Shown: piece by piece, positions 3,739 through 20,898 of the stretch
Layout: each line of letters opens with the position of its first letter
How positions within the stretch are numbered: the first letter of the stretch is position 1
Assembly (NCBI GenBank): GCA_003170475.1
Contig: PMZI01000055.1
Coordinates: 124,001-188,000, forward strand
DNA length: 64,000 nucleotides
Origin: Ignavibacteriota bacterium
GTDB lineage: Bacteria > Bacteroidota > Ignavibacteria > UBA10030
Reading direction: 5' to 3'
Notes under the pieces: generated by a model
What the model saw: only the letters and a program-made list of their open reading frames with translations
Told to the model about the DNA's origin: nothing
Databases searched by the model: none
Position numbers and translations under genes: made by a program

Positions 3739-4199
3739 GCTCTACCCTTTTGCAGACTTTGAAGTATCTGAAGAGTGCGCTCCCAGTGATTTCCGACTTG
3801 GAGTTCGTGATGAATCGCTCCGCGGATAACACCCTTTATATCGATGACATATGTTACCCGCAACATCCTCAATCCGAAAAGAGCTGAAACCTTGTAGAGT
3901 TTAGCAAGCTCATGGCGCGGATCGGAGATCAAGGAAAAGGCCAATCGATGCTCGCGCGCGAATTGTTGATGACTCTCAAGCGAATCGGGACTTACGCCAA
4001 GAATGAGCGTGTGGAGATTCTTGATGTCCTGGTAATGGTCTCTGAAAGAACAGGCTTCTCGTGTGCAGCTGTAGGTGAAATCCCTTGGATAGAAATACAG
4101 GACGAGGTGGTACTGGTCTCTTATATCTTGGAGCCGAAAGAGATCTCCGGTGTGGAGTTTTGCCTCAAATGACGGGGCAGCAGTACCGGTTCTGAGCAC
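3735..4199 (-). CDS. bcp: BCP/PrxQ-type peroxiredoxin
   Basis: A thiol peroxidase of 154 aa with the thioredoxin fold. The peroxidatic cysteine is C45 in P-x3-T-x2-C (PRDFTYSC) and the resolving cysteine C50 follows five residues later, as in E. coli Bcp. The usual Pro-Gly before the first cysteine is Tyr-Ser here. A much longer frame exists to 4415 but overlaps apt; I prefer the GTG at 4199, which has a purine-rich GAGAGGA just upstream and gives a normal Bcp length. It reduces H2O2 and organic peroxides in the cytosol, probably with electrons from thioredoxin. It overlaps tnaA by 4 bases. Confidence 0.9.
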   Translation of the reverse strand: MLRTGTAAPSFEAKLHTGDLFRLQDIRDQYHLVLYFYPRDFTYSCTREACSFRDHYQDIKNLHTLILGVSPDSLESHQQFAREHRLAFSLISDPRHELAKLYKVSALFGLRMLRVTYVIDIKGVIRGAIHHELQVGNHWERTLQILQSLQKGRA

Positions 4200-4254
4200 G
4201 AGGTTTCCTCTCAGATGTGAAGGACGGTCGGGCGAGCACGGTACTTGGGAGAGG

Positions 4255-4791
4255 TCATTCCGCGTCGTATTCAATAAGGGAAAAGACGTCGTACGATCCG
4301 AGACTCGTCCTTCCCTTGAGGAAGCTGAGTTCGATGAGAAAGGAAAGGCCGACGATTGTTCCGCCCAACGTTTCAACAAGTTTGCACGCGGCTCCGACGG
4401 TTCCACCGGTGGCAAGGAGGTCGTCGTGAATCAAAATCCGTTCGCCGGCCGAAATTGCATCCATGTGGATCTCGATGGCATCAGTCCCATATTCGAGAGA
4501 GTATTCCTGCTGAAGTTTCTCCGCAGGGAGTTTCCCCTTTTTGCGGATCGGAACAAATCCACAATCGAGCTTCAGAGCAAGCGCGGCACCAAGGATGAAA
4601 CCTCTTGATTCGATGCATGCAATCTTGTCAATGCGTTCTTCCCGATATCGCTCATAGAGGACCTGGGTTGCTTCAGCGAGTGCGTTGCGGTCCTTCAGTA
4701 ACGTCGTGATGTCTCGAAACATGATCCCCGGTTTTGGGAAGTCGGGAATCGTTCGGATATAGGAAGCAAGGCGTTCCTGGTTGGGATGCAT
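4255..4791 (-). CDS. apt: adenine phosphoribosyltransferase
   Basis: A type I phosphoribosyltransferase converting adenine and PRPP to AMP (purine salvage). The PRPP-binding motif LIHDDLLATGGTVGA and the N-terminal IPDFPKPGIMFRDIT block are diagnostic. The start is not certain: a TTG at 4818 directly follows the crotonase stop, but the ATG at 4791 gives MHPNQERLASYIR and the usual length (178 aa). Neither has a clear Shine-Dalgarno. It lies in a compact run crotonase-apt-bcp-tnaA, probably one transcript. Confidence 0.94.
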   Translation of the reverse strand: MHPNQERLASYIRTIPDFPKPGIMFRDITTLLKDRNALAEATQVLYERYREERIDKIACIESRGFILGAALALKLDCGFVPIRKKGKLPAEKLQQEYSLEYGTDAIEIHMDAISAGERILIHDDLLATGGTVGAACKLVETLGGTIVGLSFLIELSFLKGRTSLGSYDVFSLIEYDAE

Positions 4792-4818
4792 AGGCTTAGC
4801 GGATTGTGATAAGCGCAA

Positions 4819-5613
4819 CTACCACTTCGTCGGTTCCTTCTTCAGGAAGGACTCAATCCCCTTCTTGTAGTCATCCGTCATTCGCGTGAGCGCATTGAGA
4901 TTCGATGCATAGCTCAAGGCATCATTGACGGACATTCCGTGAATTCGGGAAAAGAGTTCTTTGATGAGGCCGAGCGAAGATGGACTGCAATTCTTCGCAA
5001 TTTCCAGAGCAAGCGACTGGCTGTAGTTCTCAATTTCCGTTTCCGGAACAACGTAGTTCACAAGTCCGATTTGCAACGCTTCGTCGGCGGAGAGTATGTT
5101 TCCACGGAGGGCAAGTTCGCGTGCCCGACCTTCTCCGACGCGGCGAACGAGAAAAAAGAGGACAATCGCCGGAATGAAGCCGAGCTTGACCTCTGTATAT
5201 CCGAAATGCGCTGTTTCTCTTGATGCGACAATAATATCGCACACGGTTGCAAGTCCGCACCCACCGGCGAGGGCATTGCCCTGGACGACAGCGATGACAG
5301 GTTTGCGCTGCGTGTACATGTGCAGAAACAACCGCATCAGCGTATTCGAATCCTCCTGATTCTGGTTGAAGTCGTATTTCGAAATTCGCTGCAGGTACTC
5401 GAGATCTGCTCCGGAGCAGAATGATTCCCCATCCCCTTTCAGCATGATCACCTTAACCTCGCTATCGCGCTGAGCGCTCTGGAACGCCGAGGTGAGTTCG
5501 GAGATCATCAGGTCATCAAGGGCATTGTGTTTCTCAGGTCTGCTGAGCGTGATAGTGCAAATCCTGTGATCGGTTTCGTATTTGATGCGGGTGTAGTCGG
5601 TTGAGAGAGTCAT
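4819..5613 (-). CDS. enoyl-CoA hydratase/isomerase family protein (methylglutaconyl-CoA hydratase-like)
   Basis: A crotonase-fold protein of 264 aa. The oxyanion-hole segment SFCSGADLEYL and the second segment NALAGGCGLATVCD are clear. The later acidic residue in FGYTEVKLGFIPA (Glu164 of rat crotonase) is kept. The first catalytic glutamate (Glu144) is Gly in GGCGLA. The wording FGYTEVKLGFIPAIV resembles bacterial methylglutaconyl-CoA hydratases of leucine breakdown, but no other leucine genes are near, so the substrate is open. The ATG at 5613 was chosen because the longer frame (to 5652) has no support. It starts a unit after the glnA terminator. Confidence 0.88.
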   Translation of the reverse strand: MTLSTDYTRIKYETDHRICTITLSRPEKHNALDDLMISELTSAFQSAQRDSEVKVIMLKGDGESFCSGADLEYLQRISKYDFNQNQEDSNTLMRLFLHMYTQRKPVIAVVQGNALAGGCGLATVCDIIVASRETAHFGYTEVKLGFIPAIVLFFLVRRVGEGRARELALRGNILSADEALQIGLVNYVVPETEIENYSQSLALEIAKNCSPSSLGLIKELFSRIHGMSVNDALSYASNLNALTRMTDDYKKGIESFLKKEPTKW

Positions 5614-7770: not shown

Positions 7771-7980
7771 AATAAAGTCTACAGCAGCTGAGGGAACGGT
7801 GGGAACTGGACGGCGGCTTGAGGCGCCCCAGTTCGTAGTCTTTGGGGCTAAGGGAATTGCCTACCTTAGATCGGTCATGCCAACAGGGCAATGTGCCGGC
7901 CATGGATAGGGTAGGCGCGTTTGAAGTTGATGCGGAAAAGAGTGACGATCTTGACGGGCAGTCGGGAAGTCGTTGGCCTG
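7771..7980. other. gene-free stretch with several inverted repeats, possibly a structured RNA
   Basis: This lies between the rpe stop and the lrp promoter. It has a hairpin at 7804-7833 (AACTGG/CCAGTT outside, GGCG/CGCC inside) and a longer-range pairing of GCCTACC (7859-7865) with GGTAGGC (7910-7916). Two smaller dyads lie inside it (CATG 7876-7879 with 7901-7904; TGCC 7878-7881 with GGCA 7887-7890). No reading frame, tRNA signature or T-tract was found. It could be a small RNA on either strand or an eroded element. Confidence 0.3.
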
Positions 7981-8658
7981 TTACCTCGAAGCTCGCTTTT
8001 TGTTCACGCTCTCTCGCAATTCAGCGATAGCCCGGCGCACATCAGGTTTTCGAAACACAGATGTTCCTGCAACAAGTGTGTCAGCCCCGGCAGCGGTGAC
8101 GAGCGGGGTCGTCGAGGAGTCAATGCCTCCGTCGACTTCCAGGCGGATATCGCGCCCCGATGCTTTGATCATTGATTTGATCTCTCGCATCTTTTTCAGG
8201 GTGCCTGGAAGGAATCGTTGACCTCCGAACCCGGGATTTACCGTCATCACGAGAACAAGATCGATGTCAGAGAGTATCTCCGTGAGAGTTGAGCTCGGAG
8301 TAGCAGGATTGATGGCAACGCCCGGTTTGGCTCCCAGCTCCCGTATGCGAGCGACTGTTCTTTGGAGGTGGAGACAGGCTTCCTGGTGTACCGTGATTCT
8401 ATCAGATCCGGCTTCACGAAATGCTTCTATGTGTTTGTCTGCATCAACGATCATCAGATGGGTGTCGAGTGGGAGCTTCGTCATCTTTCGGATGGCGGAA
8501 ACGACCATCGGCCCGAAGGTGATATTCGGGACGAAGCGACCATCCATGATATCCAAATGGATCCAATCCGCTCCCCCTTCTTCAGCAAGAGAGACTTGTT
8601 CACCGAGAATCGAGAAATCGGCTGCGAGGACAGATGGAGCGATGTACAATTTGGTCAT
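7981..8658 (-). CDS. rpe: ribulose-phosphate 3-epimerase
   Basis: Interconverts ribulose 5-phosphate and xylulose 5-phosphate (pentose phosphate pathway). A TIM barrel of 225 aa with APSVLAADF, the metal/catalytic block HLDIMDGRFVPN, LPLDTHLMI, VNPGFGGQRF and the phosphate-binding LEVDGGI. The start ATG overlaps the stop of the PASTA protein gene by four bases (ATGA), so the two are translated from one mRNA. Confidence 0.97.
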   Translation of the reverse strand: MTKLYIAPSVLAADFSILGEQVSLAEEGGADWIHLDIMDGRFVPNITFGPMVVSAIRKMTKLPLDTHLMIVDADKHIEAFREAGSDRITVHQEACLHLQRTVARIRELGAKPGVAINPATPSSTLTEILSDIDLVLVMTVNPGFGGQRFLPGTLKKMREIKSMIKASGRDIRLEVDGGIDSSTTPLVTAAGADTLVAGTSVFRKPDVRRAIAELRESVNKKRASR

Positions 8659-9428
8659 GGCACGTTCTGAATGTCGTTGGTTTTCTCACCCTTTTGAGCC
8701 ACCACAAGATCGACTGCTTGCCCCGTCGGCACCAATTGTCCCGCTTTGGGGAACTGATCAATGACCGTGTTTGGCAGCAGTTCAGCGTTCACTTGATACG
8801 TAATGTTGCCGACTCGAAGACCGGCGAGAATCACGATCTTTTCCGCCTCCGAAAATGTTCGCTTGGTCAGATCAGGGACAGGAACCTGGTCGCCGCTTTT
8901 CCCCTGACTCACAACTAGATTGATGACGCGTCCGTTAGGCACTTTGTTGTTCTCGGGCGTATCCTGATCGATCACGTTTCCCTGCGGGTATTCCTCGGAG
9001 ACTTCGTAGCGGATGGTCCCGAGCGCAAGGCCTGATTTCTCGAGTGAGAAAGTGGCTGCCCGGAGGGTCAAACCACGGAGGCCCGGCACGACCACGAGGG
9101 GCTCCCCTCCGCTTACGGTCAGGTAGATGCCGCGCCCAAACTTCACTTCAGCGTCCGAGGGAGGGTTCTGGACCACGACTGTTCCTTCAGGATATTGCTT
9201 GTCTGTATGTGTCTCTGCCTTCTTTCCGACGAGGCCTGCGTCAGCGAGGAGTTTGAAGGCTTGATCCAAAGGCTTGCCGACGACATTGGGGACTTTTGTA
9301 GTCTTCCCTTGTTGAACGTACCGCGGCATTACAATGTTATTAAAGATATAGAAAATGACCAGCAGAAGAGCGAGTGCCAGCGCCGGTTTCTTGAGCTGCT
9401 TCATGTGTATTTTTTTCCAGAAAGCCAT
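8655..9428 (-). CDS. membrane-anchored PASTA-domain protein
   Basis: 257 aa: a short basic N-terminus, one membrane segment (about residues 16-34), then three PASTA repeats (KVPNVVGKPLDQAF, VVPGLRGLTLRAA, PVPDLTKRTFSEA) lying outside the membrane. PASTA domains usually bind peptidoglycan fragments and are found on Ser/Thr kinases and PBPs. There is no kinase or transpeptidase domain here, so it is a stand-alone cell-wall sensor or scaffold. The ATG at 9428 has GGAG 7 nt upstream and was preferred to the longer frame. It overlaps rpe, a common arrangement in this group of bacteria. Confidence 0.9.
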   Translation of the reverse strand: MAFWKKIHMKQLKKPALALALLLVIFYIFNNIVMPRYVQQGKTTKVPNVVGKPLDQAFKLLADAGLVGKKAETHTDKQYPEGTVVVQNPPSDAEVKFGRGIYLTVSGGEPLVVVPGLRGLTLRAATFSLEKSGLALGTIRYEVSEEYPQGNVIDQDTPENNKVPNGRVINLVVSQGKSGDQVPVPDLTKRTFSEAEKIVILAGLRVGNITYQVNAELLPNTVIDQFPKAGQLVPTGQAVDLVVAQKGEKTNDIQNVP

Positions 9429-9540
9429 TCTTTTCTCCGGCCAAAAGATAGACAAACTTCGGCAGAGTTTCAATATGGTCCTCTCTCAGGAGGACGACGG
9501 TTGTTGGAGGATTGCGAATTCAGTCTTTGCCGAAAGGCTT

Positions 9541-9562
9541 GGACTCAGTCTCGGCTGAGTCC
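9541..9562. promoter_or_regulatory. perfect dyad between divergent genes
   Basis: GGACTCAG (9541-9548) and CTGAGTCC (9555-9562) form an 8-bp perfect inverted repeat with a 6-base centre. It lies in the 196-bp gap between the divergent PASTA gene and the nucleotidyltransferase gene. No T-tract follows, so an operator or mRNA-leader role is likelier than termination. Confidence 0.35.
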
Positions 9563-9624
9563 ATCGATTGTTCAAAAAATTCATTCCCGCAAATGGAACC
9601 ACCAATGACGAAGGTCGTATCCTC

Positions 9625-10566
9625 ATGGTCCCTTTCGAGATAGCGACATCTCATACTAGGCGATTGCCGGCACTCGAGAACGACATCCTGAAGGTCCTTC
9701 TCTACTTTGATGTCTTTCGTTTTCCGCTGACGGTTTCCGAGATCTATCATTTTCTTCCTTCGAATTCTATCACGCCTTCAGATGTCGCGACAGCTCTTCT
9801 TGCACCCTCACTTCAGGAGAAGGTGGAGAGCAAGAACGGATATTTCTTCCTGACCGCATCCACGGGATCCTATGCCGACGAACGTCAGGAAAAAGAACGA
9901 CGAGCTGCACGCCTCCTGAAAATTGCTCGCGTCATGGGCAAGCTTATTCGCATATTTCCATACGTTCGGGGAGTCTTCCTCTCCGGCGAACTCTCAAAGG
10001 GAATCGTGAGCGAGAAAGGCGACATCGATTTTGTCGTCGTCACTCAGGAAGGAAGACTCTGGATAACGAGGACGCTGCTCATCATGTTCAAAAAGGTGTT
10101 TCTCCTAAACCGAAAACGCTTCTTCTGCCTGAATCATTTTGTATCCGAGCATCATCTCCAAGTGCAAATACGAAACATTTATAGTGCAACGGAAGTCGCG
10201 ACACTCATGCCATTGGAAAATGACATGATGTTCTCTCGTTACATGCTCTCCAACCTTTGGATAACCCAATTCTTTCCAAATTGGAAGATTGACGAGAGAC
10301 TTCTTCGGTCTGATCGCAGGGGGACCAGCGTCGTACGAAACACCTTTGAGGAGATGATGCCTGACCGAATTGCCGACCGCCTTGATCGATGGTTGATGGC
10401 ACAATGGCAACGGCTCTGGCGAACACGCTATGCAAATTTGAGCGATGAAGAACGTAACCGAAAATACCATTGCAGTGAATACCTTTCAACGGCATATGGC
10501 GAAGACTACCAGGATACCATTCTTCGCTCCTTTGATGCCCGCCTGCATGAACATGATATCATCTGA
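9625..10566 (+). CDS. nucleotidyltransferase-fold protein with N-terminal winged-helix-like region
   Basis: 313 aa from the ATG at 9625 (a TTG at 9568 in frame is less likely). Residues 1-75 resemble a winged helix (NDILKVLLYFDVFRFPLTVSEI), and the middle has the minimal nucleotidyltransferase pattern GVFLSGELSKG with D-I-D about a dozen residues later (GDIDFVVVT). The C-terminal third is rich in aromatic and charged residues and unassigned. The fold is recognisable, but the substrate, and whether it acts on a small molecule, is not. It heads the plus-strand cluster to 18.8 kb; the next gene begins 24 bases later. Confidence 0.8.
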   Translation: MVPFEIATSHTRRLPALENDILKVLLYFDVFRFPLTVSEIYHFLPSNSITPSDVATALLAPSLQEKVESKNGYFFLTASTGSYADERQEKERRAARLLKIARVMGKLIRIFPYVRGVFLSGELSKGIVSEKGDIDFVVVTQEGRLWITRTLLIMFKKVFLLNRKRFFCLNHFVSEHHLQVQIRNIYSATEVATLMPLENDMMFSRYMLSNLWITQFFPNWKIDERLLRSDRRGTSVVRNTFEEMMPDRIADRLDRWLMAQWQRLWRTRYANLSDEERNRKYHCSEYLSTAYGEDYQDTILRSFDARLHEHDII

Positions 10567-10590
10567 GTCCGGTATTCATAAAAAACTCCT

Positions 10591-12087
10591 GTGACCGTCC
10601 GTATGGCTCAAGTCCTTTTTACGCATTCATATTTTCTTCGGTTTGACCCCAAGGAATATCGGGCGATGATGCCCTATCCCCCCCTTGGGACTCTGTATGC
10701 TGCCGGCTATCTCCGCGCACAGGGATTCGATGTTGCACTTCACGATGTGATGTTTTCGAAAAGTGAAGAAGAGTTGCAGCATGCAATCGATCATCATAGG
10801 CCAAAACTTGTCGTTATCTACGACGATCAGTTTAATTATCTTACAAAAATGTGTTTGACCCGAATGCGAGAGGCCGCGTTCGCGATGACCGGGATGGCGA
10901 AGAAGAGCGGATGCGTCGTCATCATCTTCAGCTCGGATGCCACGGATCACCTGGACAAATACTTCTCTCACGGAGCCGACTTTGTCATCTGCGGTGAGGC
11001 TGAAGAAACTCTTGCTGAACTTGTTCAAGGTCTTCTTGCGCCCGAAGAATTTGCCGTCGAGACGGTGGCCGGCTTAGCGTATTGTGTCGACGGTGAAGTG
11101 GTTCGAACAGCACCTCGCAGAGTGATTGAGCATCTCGATGCGCTGCCTTTCCCTGCATGGGATGCTGTGGATCTCTCCCCCTACCGAGATGCGTGGAAAC
11201 AAAAGCATGGGCGTTTCTCCCTCAACATGGTGACAACTCGTGGTTGTCCGTTTCACTGCAACTGGTGCGCTAAACCAATCTATGGCCAGGTGTATCATAC
11301 TCGGACCCCTGAAAATGTCGTTGAAGAAATGTTGCGGTTGCGGGAAGTCGCGCATCCCGATCATATTTGGTTTGCAGACGATATCTTTGGGCTCAAGCCA
11401 GGATGGATTGCTCACTTCGATGAAGTGGTAAGGATGCACGATGCAAAGATTCCCTTCAAATGCCTGTCACGAGTCGACCTCCTGCTGAAAGAGGACAACA
11501 TCCGGCACCTCCAGAGCGCCGGCTGTCAGACAGTCTGGGTTGGAGCAGAATCCGCGGCGCAACATGTGCTGGATGCAATGGAGAAAGGAACGACGGTCGA
11601 GCAGATTTATGAAGCGACCAAATTGCTGCAGAGCAACGGCATCAACGTGGGGTTCTTCCTTCAGTATGGGTATCCAGGCGAGACTCGTACGGACATCGAA
11701 TCCACGCTGCAGATGGTAAAAGACTGCATGCCGGACGAGATAGGAATTTCCGTGTCCTACCCCCTTCCGGGCACGCGGTTTTACGAACGAGTGAAGCAAG
11801 ATCTTGAAGGCAAGCACAACTGGGTTGACAGCGGTGATCTTGATATGATGTTTCAAGGAACCTACTCACCCGATTTCTACCGCGCTCTTCACCGAATGAC
11901 GCACAAAAAGTTTCGTGTTTGGCGGGCGAAGAACACCCTTATAGATTTGATTCTACATCCCCGGCATGTCAACCGCCTCTCGATCCGAGGGATGGCGGCA
12001 GCAGCATATCATGCTCTGACGTTGCCGAAACTGGAATCGCTTGTAAACTCACTCGCAACAGAACACACCTCCATGAACCATGGTTGA
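10591..12087 (+). CDS. B12-binding-domain radical SAM enzyme (first of two)
   Basis: 498 aa. The N-terminal ~190 residues have the Rossmann-like cobalamin-binding fold of class B radical SAM proteins (PYPPLGTLYAAGYLRAQGFDV, then GADFVICGEAEETLAELV). There is no clear DxHxxG, so cobalamin may bind base-off without the His ligand. The radical SAM core carries the cluster cysteines C219, C223 and C226 (RGCPFHCNWC), the GE-like VWVGAES and the later FFLQYGYPGET. Such enzymes methylate or rearrange unreactive carbon centres. The GTG at 10591 and an ATG at 10603 are both possible starts. It overlaps the following methyltransferase by 8 bases. Substrate unknown. Confidence 0.9.
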   Translation: MTVRMAQVLFTHSYFLRFDPKEYRAMMPYPPLGTLYAAGYLRAQGFDVALHDVMFSKSEEELQHAIDHHRPKLVVIYDDQFNYLTKMCLTRMREAAFAMTGMAKKSGCVVIIFSSDATDHLDKYFSHGADFVICGEAEETLAELVQGLLAPEEFAVETVAGLAYCVDGEVVRTAPRRVIEHLDALPFPAWDAVDLSPYRDAWKQKHGRFSLNMVTTRGCPFHCNWCAKPIYGQVYHTRTPENVVEEMLRLREVAHPDHIWFADDIFGLKPGWIAHFDEVVRMHDAKIPFKCLSRVDLLLKEDNIRHLQSAGCQTVWVGAESAAQHVLDAMEKGTTVEQIYEATKLLQSNGINVGFFLQYGYPGETRTDIESTLQMVKDCMPDEIGISVSYPLPGTRFYERVKQDLEGKHNWVDSGDLDMMFQGTYSPDFYRALHRMTHKKFRVWRAKNTLIDLILHPRHVNRLSIRGMAAAAYHALTLPKLESLVNSLATEHTSMNHG

Positions 12088-12901
12088 GAATCCAACAGAC
12101 ATTCTCGAGTTGCACCCGGTCGCTCAGGCATTCAACCTGATCTCGGAAGACTTCGACCGCGATCTCGAAAATGACATCACGAAGCGAATCCGTGAGAACA
12201 TCTATGAAATGATCGAGGGACTTGTGTTACCCGGATCTTCCATCGTAGACATAAACTGCGGAACGGGAATTGACGCAATCGCCCTCGCGCGTCGCGGGTT
12301 CAGAGTTACCGGAATCGACATTTCGCCCAAAATGATCGAGCATGCGAAGAGGAAAGCGGAGCAGGATCACCTTCAGAATGTCTCGTTTCTCCACGGCTCG
12401 TTCGAACGACTTTCAGAGGTTTTTGACCAACCCGCAGATCTCGTTCTCTCGAATTTCGCTGGGTTGAATTGCTCTGTCGACCTTTCTGTTGTAGCCAGGG
12501 AGGTCGGCTGCATCATTTCGCCGGGAGGATTCCTCCTTGCCGTCGTGATGCCTCGATTCTCGTTCTGGGAGAGTCTCTCCTACTTCCTTCGAGGTCAATG
12601 GAGAGGGAGCATTCGACGATTCCGCAAACAAACTACGGCCACAGGATTTCGCGGCAAGACTTTCATCGTTCATTATCACTCCCCCACTTCCTTCGAACGG
12701 GCGTTTCAACCATGGTTTGATGTGAGGCAACTCATCGGCGTGAGCATCTTTTCCCCCAGTCCACAATCAATGTCTTTCTATCGTTCTTACCCTCGTCTCG
12801 TGAGATGGCTTGAAAGGCTGGACGACTTGGTAGCGCCTCTCCCTTTGTTCCGTTCGATTGGAGATCATTATATCATGGTCCTTCAACGGAGAGCATCATG
12901 A
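12080..12901 (+). CDS. class I SAM-dependent methyltransferase (first of two)
   Basis: 273 aa. The SAM-binding motif I is degenerate but clear (IVDINCGTGIDAIALA), followed by motif II VTGIDISPKMIEHAKRKA and LVLSNFAGLN. The C-terminal half (SFWESLSYFLRGQWRG...) is a large substrate domain with a hydrophobic stretch. A role in methylating a lipid-like or polyketide-like intermediate of this cluster is inferred only from context. It overlaps both neighbours (8 and 4 bases). Confidence 0.87.
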   Translation: MVENPTDILELHPVAQAFNLISEDFDRDLENDITKRIRENIYEMIEGLVLPGSSIVDINCGTGIDAIALARRGFRVTGIDISPKMIEHAKRKAEQDHLQNVSFLHGSFERLSEVFDQPADLVLSNFAGLNCSVDLSVVAREVGCIISPGGFLLAVVMPRFSFWESLSYFLRGQWRGSIRRFRKQTTATGFRGKTFIVHYHSPTSFERAFQPWFDVRQLIGVSIFSPSPQSMSFYRSYPRLVRWLERLDDLVAPLPLFRSIGDHYIMVLQRRAS

Positions 12902-14055
12902 CAGTGCAGACCATGCGAAATCTTGATCGGTTCGTGGGGGTACCGTGCTGCTGGATTCTTGCGGTGGTCTTGAGACTGCTTCCCCCGAATAAGACAGGGC
13001 ACAGCGCAACAGAAGTGCACAATATCCTCGTCGTCAAGTTCTTTGGTCTCGGAAGCATCATCCTCTCGACGGCTGCTCTCTCGATGTTGAAGAAGCGTTT
13101 TCCCCAGGCGATGATTACGTTTCTTTCATTCGAATCAAATAGGGAATTGCTCGAACGAATCCCTTTGGTCGATAACGTTGTCACCATAGGGACATCCACC
13201 CTTCCAACATTCGCCTCTGACCTGTTTTCCCTGGTTCGAAAGCTTTCTCATGCCAAGTATGAAGTCGCTTTCGATTTTGAATTCTTCTCCAAGTTTTCAA
13301 CGATGATCGTGGGATTGTCTCGTGCCCGCTCTCGAGTCGGCTTTGCGCTTCCTGCGCTGTGGCGATCTCGTCTTCTTACTCATCAGGTAAGTCTCGTGAA
13401 AGGCCTTCACGTCAAGGAAGCCTTCTGCTCCCAGGTTCAGGCGCTGCTTGGTGACGCCTCTGTTGAAGAGATAGTGCCGCCGAACATTTTCCAACAGGAT
13501 TCAGCGTCACTTGACCGGAAGATGCCGTCACGCGAAGGGTCGATCATTACAGTGAATGTGAACGCCGGTGTCACGTTTATTGAGCGACGATGGGCGCCGT
13601 ACCGTTTTGCAGAACTCATAGAAGAACTCTCACGGGAGGGGAATTTCTTTTTCGTGCTCACCGGAACAATGCCGGAACGCGCGTACGTTCAAAAAGTGAT
13701 AGAGACCACCTCGAACCCTGAGCGTTGTTGGAATGCTGCCGGTTTGCTAAGCCTCCCAGAGCTTGGGGCATTGCTGCAACGTTCCACTCTCGTGATCTCC
13801 AACGACAGTGGACCGCTCCACCTTGCCGCTGCTCTCGGAGCGCCGACCATCGGGTTGTTCGGGCCGGAATCCCCCGAGTTTTATGGACCTATCGGTTCCT
13901 CCGCGTTCTCGCTCTATAACAAGATACCGTGCAGCCCATGCATGAATGTATACAGTGCAAAATCGTTTCGCTGCCCCTACAACGCTCAATGCATGAAGTC
14001 CATTCAGGTCGGAGACGTCAAGCTGATGATCGAGGAGGTGCTTGCAGTAGCGTGA
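12898..14055 (+). CDS. glycosyltransferase family 9 (heptosyltransferase-like)
   Basis: 385 aa, GT-B fold. Signatures are the N-terminal VVKFFGLGSIILSTAA and the donor-site block ISNDSGPLHLAAALGAPTIGLFG. The C-terminal Cys cluster (PCSPC ... RCPYNAQC) is common in GT9 proteins. Family members transfer ADP-heptose to lipid A-core sugars. Here the partners are radical SAM enzymes rather than LPS genes, so the acceptor is uncertain. It starts in the stop of the methyltransferase (ATGA) and ends in the start of GT87 (GTGA). Confidence 0.9.
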   Translation: MTVQTMRNLDRFVGVPCCWILAVVLRLLPPNKTGHSATEVHNILVVKFFGLGSIILSTAALSMLKKRFPQAMITFLSFESNRELLERIPLVDNVVTIGTSTLPTFASDLFSLVRKLSHAKYEVAFDFEFFSKFSTMIVGLSRARSRVGFALPALWRSRLLTHQVSLVKGLHVKEAFCSQVQALLGDASVEEIVPPNIFQQDSASLDRKMPSREGSIITVNVNAGVTFIERRWAPYRFAELIEELSREGNFFFVLTGTMPERAYVQKVIETTSNPERCWNAAGLLSLPELGALLQRSTLVISNDSGPLHLAAALGAPTIGLFGPESPEFYGPIGSSAFSLYNKIPCSPCMNVYSAKSFRCPYNAQCMKSIQVGDVKLMIEEVLAVA

Positions 14056-15299
14056 GACAGACGGCGAAATATCTTCTCCTCGCGATTCTTCTGGGTCATC
14101 TCCTCTGGCGTGGACTCATTCCAGCAATGACCACTATCGATTCAGACTTTCCGAACTACTACGTGGCCGGACATCTGGCGCTTGAAGGACGATTTGAACG
14201 GGTGTACGACGACGATTGGTTTCAGGATCAGATCCGGTCGTTTGGAATGCAACAGATGGGAAAGTTCTCACCATATCCTCCTGTTACGGCATTTGTCATG
14301 ATGCCGTTGACTCCGTTCGAGCCAGTAATCGCTCTTCGGGCTTGGACAATCATAAACATAGGAGTGCTCCTCGGCTTGATCGGATTGCTCTCGAAAATGC
14401 TCAACAAAGACTGGCTCTGGAGTGCGTTGCTGATGTTGCTCAGCGGCCACGCGCTGGTGAACAATTTCCGGCTTGGCCAGTTCTATCTGATCCTCACTTT
14501 TCTTACGCTCTGGTCACTCTCTTCATGGCAACGCGATCGCCGTCTAGCATCTGGCGTCCTCATGGGTATTGGAGCTGCAATAAAATACTTCCCTATTGTC
14601 TTCTTGCCCCTCCTCATTGCCCGAAAGGAATGGCGAATTGTAGCATCATTTCTTGGGACGGTTACCGTGTTGATCCTGCTAAGCATTGCAGTGTTGGGGG
14701 TTGAACCCTATCGGCACTTTGTGAACGCGGTATTGGTCCCCCACCTCTCCGGCAACATTCAGAATCGCTTTAGCATGAACTTCCAGTCGTGGAATAGTCT
14801 TTTGGCCAGACTTCTGCTATTCGATTCTGCGCTGAATCCAAATCCCGTTTTCGATTCCCCGATCTTGTATACCGTGAGCCTGATGGCGGTGTACGTTACT
14901 GTTCTGACGCTTCTCGTCGTCGGTGTGAGGAAAGCACAACAATTCTGGGGACATGGAGCACTCAATGTGGAATTCTCTTTGCTTTGTATTGGCGGCATTG
15001 TGTTATTTCCTGCCTCTGCCACATACCACTTTCTACTCCTGAGCATTCCCATCGCTATTCTTCTTGCTCACGGGAACAAAGCGTGGTGCGTGGAACAAAA
15101 GATCCTTGTCGCGCTCTACACCTGCACCGGGTTCATTCCATATAGCCTGTTGAGCGGTCTTGACGGAAAGGGGCTCTTGACCATCTTCGCTTATCCAAGA
15201 CTTTTCCTCACCACCACGATCATGGTCGTCGCCTTGCTGTTTGTTGCTCGATCACAAAATTCTTTGACTGACCATCATCAACGAGTTCAAATCGCATGA
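14052..15299 (+). CDS. GT87 (DUF2029) polytopic mannosyl/arabinosyl-transferase-like protein
   Basis: About 415 aa with roughly ten hydrophobic segments. The first periplasmic loop has DSDFPNYYVAGHLALEG, the pattern of GT-C enzymes of family 87 that use polyprenyl-phosphate sugars. The GTG at 14052 overlaps the GT9 stop and has GAGGAGG upstream (about 13 nt). The longer frame to 13929 would overlap GT9 by 127 bases. It probably adds a sugar on the periplasmic side. It overlaps the next gene by 4 bases. Confidence 0.85.
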   Translation: MRQTAKYLLLAILLGHLLWRGLIPAMTTIDSDFPNYYVAGHLALEGRFERVYDDDWFQDQIRSFGMQQMGKFSPYPPVTAFVMMPLTPFEPVIALRAWTIINIGVLLGLIGLLSKMLNKDWLWSALLMLLSGHALVNNFRLGQFYLILTFLTLWSLSSWQRDRRLASGVLMGIGAAIKYFPIVFLPLLIARKEWRIVASFLGTVTVLILLSIAVLGVEPYRHFVNAVLVPHLSGNIQNRFSMNFQSWNSLLARLLLFDSALNPNPVFDSPILYTVSLMAVYVTVLTLLVVGVRKAQQFWGHGALNVEFSLLCIGGIVLFPASATYHFLLLSIPIAILLAHGNKAWCVEQKILVALYTCTGFIPYSLLSGLDGKGLLTIFAYPRLFLTTTIMVVALLFVARSQNSLTDHHQRVQIA

Positions 15300-16792
15300 T
15301 CATACTCCTCAATCCAAAGAGTGCGCGAGTCAATCGCCGAATTCCGTTATCTGTATTAACCGTCGGCGCAGGGCTCGAGGGGCACCACGAATACGAAATT
15401 GTCGATGAAAACTTTGACTCGCGGGTGGAGCAGACTCTCGAAACCATGATTCGGGAGAAGGGTGCCCGCTACCTCGGGTTGACCGTGATGCCCGGACCGC
15501 AACTCGTCAGCGCCATTCACCTCTCGCAACATCTCAAGCGTCTCTTCCCCGCGCTTACGATCATTTGGGGAGGCTCGTTTCCAAGCATCCACACGGAAAC
15601 GGTCCTTCGATCGCCGTACGTTGATATCGTTGTCCTTGGGGATGGAGAAGTGATCTTGCGGGAAGTCATTGATGCCCTCGAGGGTCAGTCGGATCTCGAC
15701 TCCGTCAAGGGCATTGCGTACAGGCGCAATGGTGAAATCGTTCGAACGGAACGGCGCGAATGGACTCATCCCAATCTCATTCCACCGCTCCCCTATCACA
15801 GAATTGACGTTCAGAAGTACCTTCAGCGAACGTATCTTGGAAAAAGAACATCCGCGTATCACTCGAGCATGGGTTGTCCTTTCAAGTGCGGTTTCTGTAG
15901 CGTTGTGTCCATTTTTCAAGGACGCTGGCTGGCACAAAGTGCAGAGCGAGTTGCCGAAGAGATGAACTATGTCCACAAGCACTTTGGTGTCGACTCGATG
16001 GAGTTCTTTGACGACAATTTCTTCACGTCCGAAAAGCGGGTGTCAGAGTTTTCAGAGAGAATCCGTTCACTCAAAATGAACTGGTGGGGAGAAGGGCGAA
16101 GTGACACGTTGTATCAGTATTCCGATGCGACGTTGAGCGCCATGCGGGATGCAGGATGCAGGATGATCTTCACGGGTGCTGAGACCAGCTCTCAAGAAAA
16201 ACTCGATCTCATGAATAAGGGCGGAACACAATCAGCAGAGATTATTCTTGAATTTGCACGGCGTATCAAGGATTTCGCGATCGTGCCGGAATTCTCCTTC
16301 ATCTTCGGCAGCCCGTCAGACGATATCGATGGCGACATTGAACGCGATATTCAATTCATCAAGAAGATCAAGACGGTAAATCCTCAAAGTGAAATCATCT
16401 TCTACGTCTATGCGCCCGTGTTGCTTCCCGGATCCGTCCTGTTCGAAGAATCTCAAAAACGGGGTTTCGCTTATCCGAAGACCCTTGAGGAATGGAGCCA
16501 GCCGCAATGGCTTCACCTGGATTTACGCAAGAGGCCGATGACTCCGTGGCTGAAACCGCGACACATCGAGAAGATCAGAAATTTTGAAAGAGTGCTCAAT
16601 GCGCGCTTTCCATCGATGACCGATCTCCGGCTGACAGAACCGAAAAAGGAGTTCCTGCGGTGGCTCAGCAGTTGGAGATACGAACGCGACTACTACGTCG
16701 CACCGTATGAGGTCCGTTTCTTTCTTTCGAAAGTTTTTCGATATCGTCAACCCGATTTGGAAGGAGCGCCACAATATTCATCGGAAGGATAA
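15296..16792 (+). CDS. B12-binding-domain radical SAM enzyme (second of two)
   Basis: 498 aa, the same length as the first enzyme of this cluster but clearly different in sequence. The N-terminal cobalamin-binding-like domain includes LGLTVMPGPQLVSAIHLSQ, TIIWGGSFPSIH and VDIVVLGDGE. The radical SAM cysteines are C194, C198 and C201 (MGCPFKCGFC). Later motifs are FFDDNFFT, MIFTGAETSS and FSFIFGSPSD. Likely a carbon methylase or ring-forming enzyme on a large hydrophobic substrate (inference). It overlaps GT87 by 4 bases. Confidence 0.9.
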   Translation: MIILLNPKSARVNRRIPLSVLTVGAGLEGHHEYEIVDENFDSRVEQTLETMIREKGARYLGLTVMPGPQLVSAIHLSQHLKRLFPALTIIWGGSFPSIHTETVLRSPYVDIVVLGDGEVILREVIDALEGQSDLDSVKGIAYRRNGEIVRTERREWTHPNLIPPLPYHRIDVQKYLQRTYLGKRTSAYHSSMGCPFKCGFCSVVSIFQGRWLAQSAERVAEEMNYVHKHFGVDSMEFFDDNFFTSEKRVSEFSERIRSLKMNWWGEGRSDTLYQYSDATLSAMRDAGCRMIFTGAETSSQEKLDLMNKGGTQSAEIILEFARRIKDFAIVPEFSFIFGSPSDDIDGDIERDIQFIKKIKTVNPQSEIIFYVYAPVLLPGSVLFEESQKRGFAYPKTLEEWSQPQWLHLDLRKRPMTPWLKPRHIEKIRNFERVLNARFPSMTDLRLTEPKKEFLRWLSSWRYERDYYVAPYEVRFFLSKVFRYRQPDLEGAPQYSSEG

Positions 16793-16856
16793 AGTGCTGA
16801 TTTCTTTGAGTCGCTACACCGGTTTCACTATTCTCCATACGCTATCATGACCCAAC

Positions 16857-17606
16857 ATGCTCATTGAGCGGATTCTCCATCGATTGCACAATAGGGTGAG
16901 GACTCTTGAGCCCCATCCTGCCTATCAGGCCTGGGCGAGCACCTATGATCAGCGGGAGAACAACGCTCTGTTGTATGCTGAGGAGAGAGCCTTCATACCC
17001 CTTCTCGATTCTGTAAACCTTCGGGACAAGAACGTCATTGATTTTGGATGCGGGACTGGAAGGCATCTTTCGCGCTGCCTGGGAAGAAATGCTCTCTCAA
17101 TCACCGGAATTGACATCTCGCGTGAGATGCTGGCTCGGGCTCTTCATAAAGCGTCCACTTCAGAACGGTTCATGCTTCTCGAAGCATCGATTGATTCTCT
17201 ACCATTTCGTGATGCGTGTTTTGACGTAGGTATTGCGACGTTGGTTCTTAGCCACTGTGCGAGGCTCGAAGCGCCGATCGCAGAGATGTCCCGCGTCCTG
17301 CGGCATGGGGCGACTCTACTCGTGTCTGATTGGCATCCTGAAAATGACCGTCGGGGATGGAGGAGAATCTTTGAGGTGCCTTCTGCCGATGGCCCGGGGG
17401 TTCGATACTCGGTGCAGAGCTATTCTCATTCGCTCTCCGAGTATCGAGATCAGTTCCTGAAATGTGGCTTCCTTGTGGAGGATGTTCATGAACCCATGAT
17501 CGATGAATCGCTGGAGCCGATCTTCAAACGCACAAACATGATGCATGTATATCATCAGTACCACGGCTCACCCGTCGTGGCAGTGTTTGCGTTGCGAAAA
17601 ACATGA
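16857..17606 (+). CDS. class I SAM-dependent methyltransferase (second of two)
   Basis: 249 aa of the Methyltransf_11/UbiE-like type. Motif I is VIDFGCGTGRHLSRCL, motif II ITGIDISREMLARALHKA, and DVGIATLVLSHC and the post-motif MSRVLRHGATLLVSDWHP follow. It begins 64 bases after the radical SAM gene, and its stop overlaps the start of the amidohydrolase (ATGA). Substrate unknown; the cluster context suggests O- or N-methylation late in a pathway. Confidence 0.9.
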   Translation: MLIERILHRLHNRVRTLEPHPAYQAWASTYDQRENNALLYAEERAFIPLLDSVNLRDKNVIDFGCGTGRHLSRCLGRNALSITGIDISREMLARALHKASTSERFMLLEASIDSLPFRDACFDVGIATLVLSHCARLEAPIAEMSRVLRHGATLLVSDWHPENDRRGWRRIFEVPSADGPGVRYSVQSYSHSLSEYRDQFLKCGFLVEDVHEPMIDESLEPIFKRTNMMHVYHQYHGSPVVAVFALRKT

Positions 17607-18802
17607 GGCCTCCATCGATTATACTGTCCGGTGCGCGATGTTTTGTCGGTGGTCGATTTGAGATCTGTTCACTCAAACTCATCGACGGATTCATTCGGGA
17701 AATAGCTCCGTCTTTCCGTGCAACGACGAAAGATCTTGTGCTCAATCTCGAGGGAACGGCCATTCTGCCCGGATTGATCAATGCGCACGATCACCTTGAG
17801 TTTAATCTATTCAAAAAAATAGGAACTCCACCCTATCCCAATTACGTGTCATGGGGAGAGGATATTCATAAGCAGCACAAAGACTACATTGAACAGGTAC
17901 TTCGGGTTCCATTGGGGCTGCGGCTGCTTTGGGGAGCATACAAGAACATATTCTCCGGCGCGACCACTGTCGTCCACCACAACAAATTCTATTTCGATTT
18001 TCTCTTCGGGTATCCCGTCGACGTTCTTCGTAACTACGCCTGGATCCACTCTCTTGCACTTGATGATAAGCTTGAAAAGAAGTTGACATCGCGGAAAGCG
18101 AGGCCGTGTATCATCCATCTCGCTGAGGGCGTGGACGACTTTGCGAGGTCCGAGCTAACAAGACTTGTCGAAATTGGAGGGCTCACCAAGCACACGGTAC
18201 TCGTTCATGGCATTGGACTCTCTCTCGGCGATCTTGCTCAGATCGAGGACGCCGGTGCAAGTCTCGTCTGGTGTCCCAGTTCGAATGATTTCCTCTTCCA
18301 CCAAACAGCTCCTGTAAATCAGGCCATGGGAAGATTTCGGATAGCACTCGGAACGGATTCGACGCTGACAGGGAACTCGAGCTTGTTCGATGAGATCCGA
18401 CGTGGATTGCAGGTGGAGCAGGTTCGGCCACTCGATGCGCTGGCCATGGTAACCTCGTCGCCCGCGGATATTTTCGGAATTAGAAAAGGAGAAATTGCGG
18501 AAGGAAGAGCAGCCGATCTCCTTTTGTACGACTGTGAAGAGGGGGATCCGCTCAAGGGATTCGTCGACCTTGACGTCAGCAAGATAAAGTGTCTTCTCAG
18601 GAATGGTGTGCCTCTTTACGGAGACACCTCAGTAGTGCATTCGCTTCAAGCATCGGGGACCTACACAAGTATGGAAGTGTTGAAGAAGAAGAAAATGGTC
18701 CGGGGCGATCTGGCCGGTCTGATGCAGAGCATCTCGAGACACCTTCCTGCATTCGATTTCAATGCCCTCCCCATTGAAATTGAAGTCAGTCCGAAGGCTT
18801 GA
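17603..18802 (+). CDS. metal-dependent amidohydrolase
   Basis: 399 aa of the amidohydrolase superfamily (COG0402-like: chlorohydrolase, guanine/cytosine deaminase relatives). The metal site is complete: H62 and H64 (NAHDHLEF), H172 (IHLAEG), H202 (VHGIG) and D252 (GTDSTLTG). The C-terminal beta-sandwich resumes at EGRAADLLLYD. It would hydrolyse or deaminate a C-N bond. Being last in the radical SAM cluster it may remove an amine or acyl group from the product or intermediate; that is inference. The C-terminal ~45 residues are unassigned. Confidence 0.9.
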   Translation: MRPPSIILSGARCFVGGRFEICSLKLIDGFIREIAPSFRATTKDLVLNLEGTAILPGLINAHDHLEFNLFKKIGTPPYPNYVSWGEDIHKQHKDYIEQVLRVPLGLRLLWGAYKNIFSGATTVVHHNKFYFDFLFGYPVDVLRNYAWIHSLALDDKLEKKLTSRKARPCIIHLAEGVDDFARSELTRLVEIGGLTKHTVLVHGIGLSLGDLAQIEDAGASLVWCPSSNDFLFHQTAPVNQAMGRFRIALGTDSTLTGNSSLFDEIRRGLQVEQVRPLDALAMVTSSPADIFGIRKGEIAEGRAADLLLYDCEEGDPLKGFVDLDVSKIKCLLRNGVPLYGDTSVVHSLQASGTYTSMEVLKKKKMVRGDLAGLMQSISRHLPAFDFNALPIEIEVSPKA

Positions 18803-18911
18803 GTTTAACGACGCGGCTGAAGGCATTCATCTAAAGCTCATGGACAGTGGAAAGGCCGAACCTCGGATCCTCAGATCATCGGATGAAAGGACGGCCGTCG
18901 GATGCCCTGAA

Positions 18912-18940
18912 TTGCATTTTACTTCAATCTTGTCTATATT
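18912..18940 (+). promoter_or_regulatory. promoter for the cdd-tdk-PNP-bshC genes
   Basis: TTGCAT (18912-18917), 17 bp, TATATT (18935-18940). It lies in the roughly 200-bp gap after the amidohydrolase and about 55 bases before the preferred cdd start. It uses the same two hexamers as the rimP promoter. Confidence 0.55.
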
Positions 18941-19000
18941 TTCGCGGATTTGTCTTACATTGGACAAGGATCTTCTCACTTATTTGGGAATCAGAATCGA

Positions 19001-19420
19001 TTGCGACCTGAATACAAAGATCTCGTCAAAAAGGCTCAGGAAGCGAAGAAACGCGCCTTCGCACCTTATTCGAAATTTCATGTTGGTGCCGCCCTCCTCA
19101 CTTCCAGAGGAAAGATCTACACTGGTTGCAATGTGGAAATCAGCACGTATGCGCTGACGATCTGCGCTGAGCGAACTGCAATTTTCAAAGCGATTTCTGA
19201 AGGCGATCGTCAATTCAAAGCGATTGCAGTGATCTCTGACGATCCCGGATACACTCCTCCATGCGGTTCCTGCCGTCAGGTGCTCATGGATCTCGCCGGA
19301 AACATAGATTTCCTGATGGTCAATGGGAAAGGCCATGTGGAGATCCTGAAGATGCGGGAGCTTCTTCCCCACGCCTTTGGCAAAAAAAATCTTGAACGAA
19401 CCAAGAAGAAACACAGGTAG
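19001..19420 (+). CDS. cdd: cytidine deaminase
   Basis: Deaminates cytidine and deoxycytidine to uridine and deoxyuridine; homotetrameric type. The zinc site is C55, E57 (CAE), C88 and C91 (PCGSC), and APYSKFHVGAAL is the usual N-terminal block. No ATG is available. The TTG at 19001 gives 139 aa starting RPEYKDLVKK, which aligns with the start of the B. subtilis enzyme. An in-frame TTG at 18950 would lie at the predicted transcription start. It precedes tdk by 3 bases. Confidence 0.92.
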   Translation: MRPEYKDLVKKAQEAKKRAFAPYSKFHVGAALLTSRGKIYTGCNVEISTYALTICAERTAIFKAISEGDRQFKAIAVISDDPGYTPPCGSCRQVLMDLAGNIDFLMVNGKGHVEILKMRELLPHAFGKKNLERTKKKHR

Positions 19421-19423
19421 GAC

Positions 19424-19999
19424 ATGGATACTTCGGAATTGCACAACGTGCCGCGAAATACTGGCTGGATTGAAGTCGTTTGCGGGTGCATGTTCAGCGG
19501 TAAGACAGAAGAGCTGATTCGGCGAGCGAGGCGCGCGGAGATTGCCAAACAAAGAGTTGCGATTTTCAAGCCGAGAATCGATAACCGGTACAGCGCTCAG
19601 CATATCGTTTCCCACAGCGAGCAGTCATTGACGTCTACTGTTGTCGACGATGCTTCGGAGATTCTCCTCCTCTGCAAGGATGCCCAGGTCGTAGGCGTCG
19701 ATGAAGGTCAGTTCTTCAAGGCCAATCTTGTGGAAGTCTGCGAGAAATTGGCAAATGACGGAAAAAGGGTAATCGTAGCAGGGCTTGATCAGGACTATCG
19801 GGGAAAGCCTTTTGAACCAATGCCTCAACTCCTGGCAGTCGCGGAATATATTACGAAGACGCTGGCGATCTGCGTAGTATGCGGCAATCCTGCCGACAGG
19901 ACACAACGGAAGACCCTTAATGCGGATCGAGTTCTTGTTGGCGCCAAGGACATTTATGAAGCTCGCTGCCGACATTGTTTTGAGCCACCTTCTGAATAA
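19424..19999 (+). CDS. tdk: thymidine kinase (type II)
   Basis: Phosphorylates thymidine with ATP. 191 aa with the P-loop [10 protein letters not shown] near residues 21-30, the Walker B-like [10 protein letters not shown], and the zinc-binding lasso region with paired cysteines (CVVCG and CRHC). It sits directly after cdd and before a purine nucleoside phosphorylase, forming a small nucleoside-salvage group. Confidence 0.96.
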
Positions 20000-20040
20000 G
20001 CAGACCTGCATCGGGCAAGAGAGAGCTGAGGACCCATGAA

Positions 20041-20898
20041 GTGGAAGGAACGCAGGTATTGATCGACAACCAGGTCCTAGACAAAGCCGTAGGGTATCTT
20101 TCTTCACGCATCACTCGAAGACCGGAAGTCGCACTTGTCCTCGGTTCGGGGCTGGGAGATTTTGCGAGCCAACTCGTAAATCCGATTGAAGTTCCGGCAG
20201 GCGCAATCCCTTCCTATCCAACTTCTACGGTTGAAGGACATGACGGTAGACTTGTTTTTGGCACTCTCAAGTCCGACGAGCGCGAATCCCTTCCTCTTCT
20301 GGTTTTCAAAGGCCGAGTTCATTTCTACGAGAACGGACTCCTGGATTCGATCACTTTTCCGGTTCGCGTAGCCCATTCCCTCGGAGCAAGAGTACTTCTG
20401 GCAACGAATGCAGCCGGCGGAATCAATCCTGCTTTTTCTGAGGGAGATCTGATGTTGATTGAGGACTTTATTAATCTCTCGTTTCTCAATCCCCAGTGGC
20501 AGGTTCAATCAAATCCAGCAAGTCCTTTTCAGGTCATGCGTGGAAGTCATATTGATGAAGGACTTTCCAACTTGGTAACTGAATCCGCGAGTGGGCTTGG
20601 CATCAAGCTTCAGCACGGTAGCTACTGCTTTCTTAGAGGCCCTTCATACGAAACCAAAGCAGAAATTGAGATGCTTCGGAGGATCGGGGCTGATGCTGTT
20701 GGAATGTCCACAGTTCCTGAGATCATTATAGCATCGAAACTAGGAATGCGTGTTACTGCGATATCTTTGATTTCCAACCTCGCAGCTGGTTTAAGTGACG
20801 AGCGATTGTCCCATAAAGAAGTTGCACAAACAGCGTCTCGTGTAAAGCAAGTATTCAGTGCTTTATTGACCGAGATCATCCTACGAATCAAGAACTGA
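20041..20898 (+). CDS. purine-nucleoside phosphorylase (trimeric type)
   Basis: 285 aa, family II PNP acting on inosine and guanosine. Visible blocks are LVLGSGLGDFA (phosphate site), the catalytic His region in VFKGRVHFYEN, LATNAAGGIN, the specificity block LRGPSYETKAEI, VGMSTVPEIIIA and ISLISNLAAGL. The start is the GTG at 20041 with GAGG upstream; a TTG at 20059 is also possible. It phosphorolyses purine nucleosides to free base and ribose 1-phosphate, and fits with cdd and tdk upstream. Confidence 0.93.
   Translation: MEGTQVLIDNQVLDKAVGYLSSRITRRPEVALVLGSGLGDFASQLVNPIEVPAGAIPSYPTSTVEGHDGRLVFGTLKSDERESLPLLVFKGRVHFYENGLLDSITFPVRVAHSLGARVLLATNAAGGINPAFSEGDLMLIEDFINLSFLNPQWQVQSNPASPFQVMRGSHIDEGLSNLVTESASGLGIKLQHGSYCFLRGPSYETKAEIEMLRRIGADAVGMSTVPEIIIASKLGMRVTAISLISNLAAGLSDERLSHKEVAQTASRVKQVFSALLTEIILRIKN

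Follow-up and report, generated by a model that had tools for sequence, protein, structure and literature searches.

In the HpnI-HpnK-HpnJ hopanoid head-group route, a glycosyltransferase and a hydrolase are combined with a B12 radical SAM enzyme, a logic that we take to be parallel to that of the locus described here. Wzx/Wzy surface polysaccharide loci contain a MOP flippase, a Wzy_C protein, and GT2 and GT4 glycosyltransferases; their 5′ genes are constant, their distal transferases vary, and they are present or absent at one chromosomal site. The aminoglycoside nucleotidyltransferase ANT(4′) and the MNT antitoxins are nucleotidyltransferases (NTases), a fold that goes with a G and a DxD motif. 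Among B12-dependent radical SAM enzymes, AprD4 is a diol dehydratase of apramycin biosynthesis, while OxsB acts on a nucleotide in the ring contraction that yields oxetanocin. OxsB, HpnJ and BchE are listed among the non-methylases (PMC13142503). We describe an eight-gene unit from an uncultured Ignavibacteria-type bacterium that probably works like a surface-glycan locus with radical tailoring and is assigned to no named system.

The unit occupies positions 9625-18802 of the window, which is the whole 64,000-nucleotide stretch of DNA that was analysed. The window is part of contig C16 of a 4.08 Mb genome (G000) whose relatives are Ignavibacteria-type MAGs. All eight open reading frames are intact and lie on the plus strand:

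9625-10566, plus strand: A, protein with a winged helix and a nucleotidyltransferase fold, no Pfam family (predicted model, conserved residues)
10591-12087, plus strand: B, B12-binding radical SAM enzyme, core of the system (Pfam and NCBIfam scores, model, alignment)
12080-12901, plus strand: C, class I methyltransferase, third core gene (Pfam Methyltransf_11/25, neighbourhood)
12898-14055, plus strand: D, GT9 glycosyltransferase (Pfam, NCBIfam)
14052-15299, plus strand: E, membrane glycosyltransferase of the GT87 polyprenyl-phosphate-sugar type, GTG start, 4 bp overlap with D (Pfam)
15296-16792, plus strand: F, second B12-binding radical SAM enzyme, of a family distinct from B (Pfam, NCBIfam, tree)
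16857-17606, plus strand: G, second methyltransferase, found with H in every class-sample occurrence (Pfam, co-occurrence)
17603-18802, plus strand: H, COG0402-like amidohydrolase with complete metal and catalytic residues (Pfam, NCBIfam, motifs)
9479-18468, strand not applicable: block absent from the nearest sibling, G003, in which the 3′ third of H remains (alignment to L102)

The junctions from A to H measure +24, −8, −4, −4, −4, +64 and −4 bp, so that the overlaps of 4-8 bases at five of the seven junctions reported in a preliminary description of this DNA were confirmed. An alternative, longer frame for E starting at 13929 is unlikely. No terminator-like site was found between the genes of the unit, the sole plus-strand site (13627) being inside D, and the total number of such sites found was below the chance mean. 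Because nearly all of the 10 other large window genes that we scanned have housekeeping functions (glutamine synthetase, IF-2, DnaE, prolyl-tRNA synthetase, EPSP synthase and others), we regard the unit as an accessory block in a housekeeping region. A RiPP cluster was rejected, since gaps of only 24 and 64 bp within the unit and about 150 bp on each side would leave little room for a precursor gene; B and F scored 87-110 bits against ApyD (cut-off 750). We also rejected a defence system, for which PADLOC gave only weak domain matches to B and G. Upstream of A, between a divergent PASTA gene and the unit, a 9-bp inverted repeat without mismatches encloses a loop of 6 bases (TGGACTCAG TCTCGG CTGAGTCCA, window 9540-9563). 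Since no comparable perfect repeat was found in seven relatives, this hairpin was rejected as a conserved control element.

Comparison with the nearest sibling, G003 (rpe 88% and cdd 90% identical), revealed an apparent natural loss of the unit. Window positions 7921-9478 and 18469-20699 align to positions 1140-2698 and 2773-5001 of the sibling locus L102, in which only about 75 bases separate the two aligned stretches. A remnant corresponding to codons 283-383 of H (65% identical) persists there, indicating that at least H was once present and then lost. The simplest reading is that A to G were apparently lost together with most of H in one deletion of ~9.0 kb. The junction between rpe-PASTA and cdd-tdk (window 9479-18949) is a recurrent presence/absence site of large blocks across the order. 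The interval spans 9-14 kb in six genomes (G001, G005, G010, G014, G016 and G036), contains almost nothing in G002, G008, G013 and more, and holds about 5 kb of other content in G017.

The distribution of the unit genes was determined in a class sample of 149 genomes picked regardless of whether they carried these genes. A and B were each found in 40 genomes, 39 of which were common to both, and the two mismatched genomes are only 71% and 78% complete; the B count used an E value below 1e-60 and takes in family f20 and a few others whose match, at 36-42%, corresponds to the paralogue B2 rather than to B itself. F was found in 20 genomes, every one of which has A and B, whereas G and H occurred in the same 5 of the 149 genomes, belonging to three families and all containing F, A and B. 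Hypergeometric values for co-occurrence, uncorrected for kinship, were 1e-33, 4e-14 and 3e-5. In family f20 (L112-L115; G104, G074), A and a B2-type radical SAM enzyme are on different contigs, and thus the link between A and B is not universal.

We also scanned 80 loci of close relatives from Ignavibacteriota/Bacteroidota, Chloroflexota, Thermomicrobiota, Balneolota and Acidobacteriota. A was immediately 5′ of B in 61 of the 75 loci long enough to show it, at a median distance of about 13 bp, and C followed within 5 kb in 35 of 51. The order A-B-(B2)-C-D-E recurred in L025, L021, L022, L026, L029 and L087 (L029 begins within the cluster); F comes next in three of these, L022, L025 and L026. 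A-B, usually with C, is a widespread conserved core in several phyla, and D-E are swapped for other transferases. The preliminary description had proposed that the eight genes form one unit with one product, and that their co-occurrence in order elsewhere should be checked. The genes' co-occurrence and conserved adjacency, together with the deletion of the block in the sibling, support a single unit with one product; however, the eight genes are not one fixed set, as the A-B-(C) core is constant, D-E are exchanged and F-G-H are separable. One locus from another family (L118, genome G046) holds all eight genes together and the core recurs across phyla, but order and strand differ, L118 reading A-B-C-E-D-F followed by H-G on the other strand. 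Strict co-occurrence and natural block loss define the member genes, so that a small number of purified proteins would be enough for a test of the function.

F, G and H are a separable second module that is co-inherited. They are neighbors in all five genomes, in an order and orientation that vary: the genes share a strand in G000 and G010, diverge in G151 and G160, and converge in G046. That the three genes are kept together despite this shuffling suggests selection to stay together. H exceeded the Pfam gathering score for Amidohydro_1 (78.3 bits) and contains the motifs HxH (62-64), HLAE (172-175), VLVHG (199-203) and GTDS (250-253); its best score against the named COG0402 deaminases among the NCBIfam equivalogs was 62.8 of 294 bits, with the catalytic motifs present. 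The complete metal site of the amidohydrolase and the complete Cys triads of both radical SAM enzymes (CxxxCxxC at 219-226 in B and 194-201 in F) had been noted in the preliminary description, and both hold. H (8 loci), PNP-type enzymes (11) and TadA-like enzymes (4) never occurred together in the scanned loci. These enzymes may play equivalent roles, acting on a nucleotide moiety or on by-products of the radical chemistry, although lineage could also explain their exclusivity. Plain recycling of 5′-deoxyadenosine or SAH is a possible role of these enzymes, but for the PNP family, AMP nucleosidase and uridine phosphorylase scores exceeded the MTA/SAH nucleosidase score. In one Chloroflexota clade (L048, L086, L093, L096 and L100), H is directly or almost directly upstream of B with no relative of A beside it, and the B proteins of these loci form a supported clade.

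B and F each contain B12-binding and Radical_SAM domains in Pfam, which places them in the B12-dependent radical SAM superfamily, and they belong to none of the NCBIfam radical SAM equivalogs that we scored. The best family scores of B were those for BchE (TIGR02026; 148.9 for B and 133.8 for F, cut-off 481 bits) and HpnJ (TIGR03471; 120.3 and 120.4, cut-off 577.6), both far below the cut-off, and scores were also too low for AprD4 (NF033070; 74.0 and 41.4, cut-off 500) and the ladderane-type enzymes (TIGR04072; 113.8 and 59, cut-off 360). When the predicted model of B was compared with solved structures, AprD4 was nearest (PDB 6fd2; Z 26.1, rmsd 3.6 over 426 residues, 21% identity), followed by OxsB (PDB 5ul3/5ul4; Z 24.9, 443 residues, 18% identity), with the methylases MgmA (Z 23.2) and TsrM (Z 22.5) behind both. 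As OxsB is within 1.2 Z, the closeness of B to AprD4 may partly reflect the scarcity of B12 radical SAM structures. B differs from AprD4 in reaching only 74 bits of 500 and in belonging to a unit without aminoglycoside scaffold genes, and OxsB, with a chain of about 730 residues, includes additional domains and lies in another gene context. Since the nearest families and structures are non-methylases, methylation is not our default reading of B; C-alkylation, deoxygenation or ring rearrangement of a sugar would all be compatible with the model. Across 79 sequences, 120 of the 498 positions of B are kept at ≥95%, in agreement with one conserved reaction. B, B2 (a paralogue of B) and F form distinct families with good support. 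Each is common to Ignavibacteria-type genomes and Chloroflexota, which suggests that the system crossed phyla rather than having two origins.

The preliminary description had envisaged a methylated lipid, and these results do not bear it out: B fits no characterised methylase or lipid enzyme, and BchE, HpnJ, AprD4 and OxsB are all non-methylases. B12 radical SAM enzymes do act on lipids elsewhere, and the scores of B against TIGR04072 (114 bits) and HpnJ (120 bits) could be taken to mean that the unit modifies a ladderane-, tetraether- or hopanoid-like membrane lipid core to which the glycosyltransferases just add a head group. We consider this quite unlikely, as both scores fall far short of the curated cut-offs (360 and 577.6), the unit yielded no acyl, isoprenoid or glycerol-ether enzyme, and the genome is without squalene-hopene cyclase. 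The cyclase family (PF13243) was absent from G000, which is 96% complete, and was detected in control genomes; a hopanoid pathway was therefore rejected. The unit also differs from the HpnI-HpnK-HpnJ route in that H is COG0402-like rather than an HpnK-type deacetylase.

A gave zero matches to Pfam and NCBIfam profiles. Its predicted model (mean pLDDT 92) combines a winged helix (residues 11-80) with a nucleotidyltransferase fold, and G121, D133, D135 and an unusual C168-x-N170 are invariant. The fold together with the G-(x)n-DxD motif assigns A to the nucleotidyltransferase fold, within which a third NTase carboxylate was not found in A. The NTase half (92-299) showed a modest match to ANT(4′) (Z 8.8, rmsd 3.1, 110 residues), Foldseek returned no PDB match at E < 0.001, and the match to the MNT antitoxin profile was weak (E 0.087). 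Thus A shares the fold, the invariant G and the DxD motif with ANT(4′) and the MNT antitoxins but differs in its N-terminal winged helix, its lack of a Pfam match and its invariant C168-x-N170. Unlike an MNT antitoxin, A never adjoins a HEPN toxin gene here; it either stands alone or accompanies the genes of a biosynthetic set. A second copy of A (39% identical) is present in the same genome on contig C2 (L101 2408-3364) with no other unit gene beside it. The possibility that A is an unrelated regulator was rejected because A adjoins B in 61 of 75 loci, this lone paralogue being noted.

The resemblance of A to an aminoglycoside nucleotidyltransferase, and of B to two antibiotic-pathway enzymes, AprD4 and OxsB, raised the possibility that the unit makes a secreted aminoglycoside- or nucleoside-like natural product, with A, B, F and H acting on a free sugar or nucleotide that the transferases decorate. 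The patchy presence of the unit and the recurrence of PNP-type, TadA-like or COG0402-type enzymes near the core fit this possibility. Nevertheless, vertical retention in about one quarter of the class, and in several phyla, would be a wide distribution for an antibiotic, and neighboring O-antigen ligase, flippase and GT87 genes better suit an envelope polymer or lipid-linked glycan, such that we consider a natural product unlikely.

C and G are Methyltransf_11/25 proteins in Pfam, and D and E exceeded the gathering scores for GT9 (98 bits) and GT87 (116.5 bits), respectively. Hydrophobic segments numbered 8 in E, 2 in D and 1 in C. The preliminary description had placed assembly in the cytosol and a finishing step in the periplasm; since only E appears to be strongly membrane-embedded, it is E that would provide the periplasmic step. 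The GT9 assignment of D, in a host with LpxC and seven GT9 matches, could indicate that the unit is an LPS inner-core locus, with D as a heptosyltransferase. However, D scored below every heptosyltransferase equivalog cut-off (97.2 of 170.2, 92 of 134.6 and 66.6 of 185.3 bits for LPS heptosyltransferases I, II and III), the sibling without the unit keeps LpxC and six GT9 matches, and the A-B-C core is present in Chloroflexota genomes, of completeness not given, in which neither LpxC nor GT9 was found. An inner-core function is thus very unlikely, whereas addition to outer LPS or O-antigen in the host would come under a surface-glycan explanation. The hopanoid and LPS-core loci had been named in the preliminary description as matches that would count against a new pathway; the absent cyclase and the missed HpnJ and heptosyltransferase cut-offs speak against both. 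Its statement that no named pathway has this gene set agrees with every search that we made, in protein families and in the open-access literature, where we found no described gene set matching the unit.

Gene neighborhoods in other genomes lend good support to the earlier suggestion of a glycosylated product. In Chloroflexota, the A-B-C core is commonly accompanied by a Wzy_C-family protein, GT2, a MOP flippase, GT4s, a PNP-type phosphorylase and further methyltransferases, and in Bacteroidota-type relatives by GT9, GT87, GT4, GT2, an arylsulfotransferase or an ABC exporter. Among 43 loci of at least 15 kb, 30 contained at least one of nine recognised glycan gene clusters and 13 contained none, although the cluster lists are incomplete. 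In L069 (a single MAG contig), a GT4 and A form one in-frame fusion, and in L107 C is extended by a GT29-like region (31 bits, cut-off 23); a like extension of C in L037 reached only 20.5 bits against the same cut-off. Together, the glycan-gene neighbors, the GT4-A fusion and the GT29-like extension point to a glycan. Genes for a flippase, a polymerase or the synthesis of sugar nucleotides are absent from the window's own unit, which thus does not pair a flippase with a polymerase or ligase, as the Chloroflexota versions do. The unit and its relatives share with Wzx/Wzy loci the constant 5′ genes, the variable distal transferases and the presence or absence at one chromosomal site. Its NTase-B12 radical SAM-methyltransferase core differs from Wzx/Wzy loci and matches no described locus that we found.

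From these comparisons, the unit is probably a biosynthesis and tailoring operon for a cell-surface glycan or glycolipid. Given a constant core with changing transferases, A-B-C most likely provides or modifies a particular sugar unit that is used in different glycans. We infer the substrate, product, chemistry and order of steps as follows. B, together with A, would alter the carbon skeleton of a sugar residue by means of a 5′-deoxyadenosyl radical and cobalamin, through deoxygenation, ring rearrangement or C-alkylation, with A transferring a nucleotide onto a sugar intermediate or as pathway control, and C would methylate the product of B. D would then extend the sugar unit on the cytosolic side, and E would extend it from a polyprenyl-phosphate sugar at the outer face of the membrane. 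A lineage-specific residue would result from a further radical edit, a methylation step and the hydrolytic removal of an amino or acyl group by F, G and H. A more specific version, which we consider doubtful, is that A and B are a new two-enzyme radical sugar-editing system, widespread in Ignavibacteria and Chloroflexota, that places a novel sugar in surface glycans; a sugar or a lipid-linked sugar would receive a nucleotide handle from A and have its carbon skeleton rearranged by B, after which the nucleotide part would be acted on by PNP-type phosphorylases, TadA-like deaminases or H.

Three B12 radical SAM families (B, B2 and F), each common to several phyla, appear to be tied to surface-glycan assembly. 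If B edits a sugar, many Ignavibacteria and Anaerolineae, which are large uncultured groups, would carry undescribed envelope sugar chemistry marked by the A-B pair. A MoaA/PqqE-like radical SAM-SPASM protein was also found in L037 (16649-18609), L025, L029, L030, L061, L063 and L107, usually beside an extra methyltransferase.
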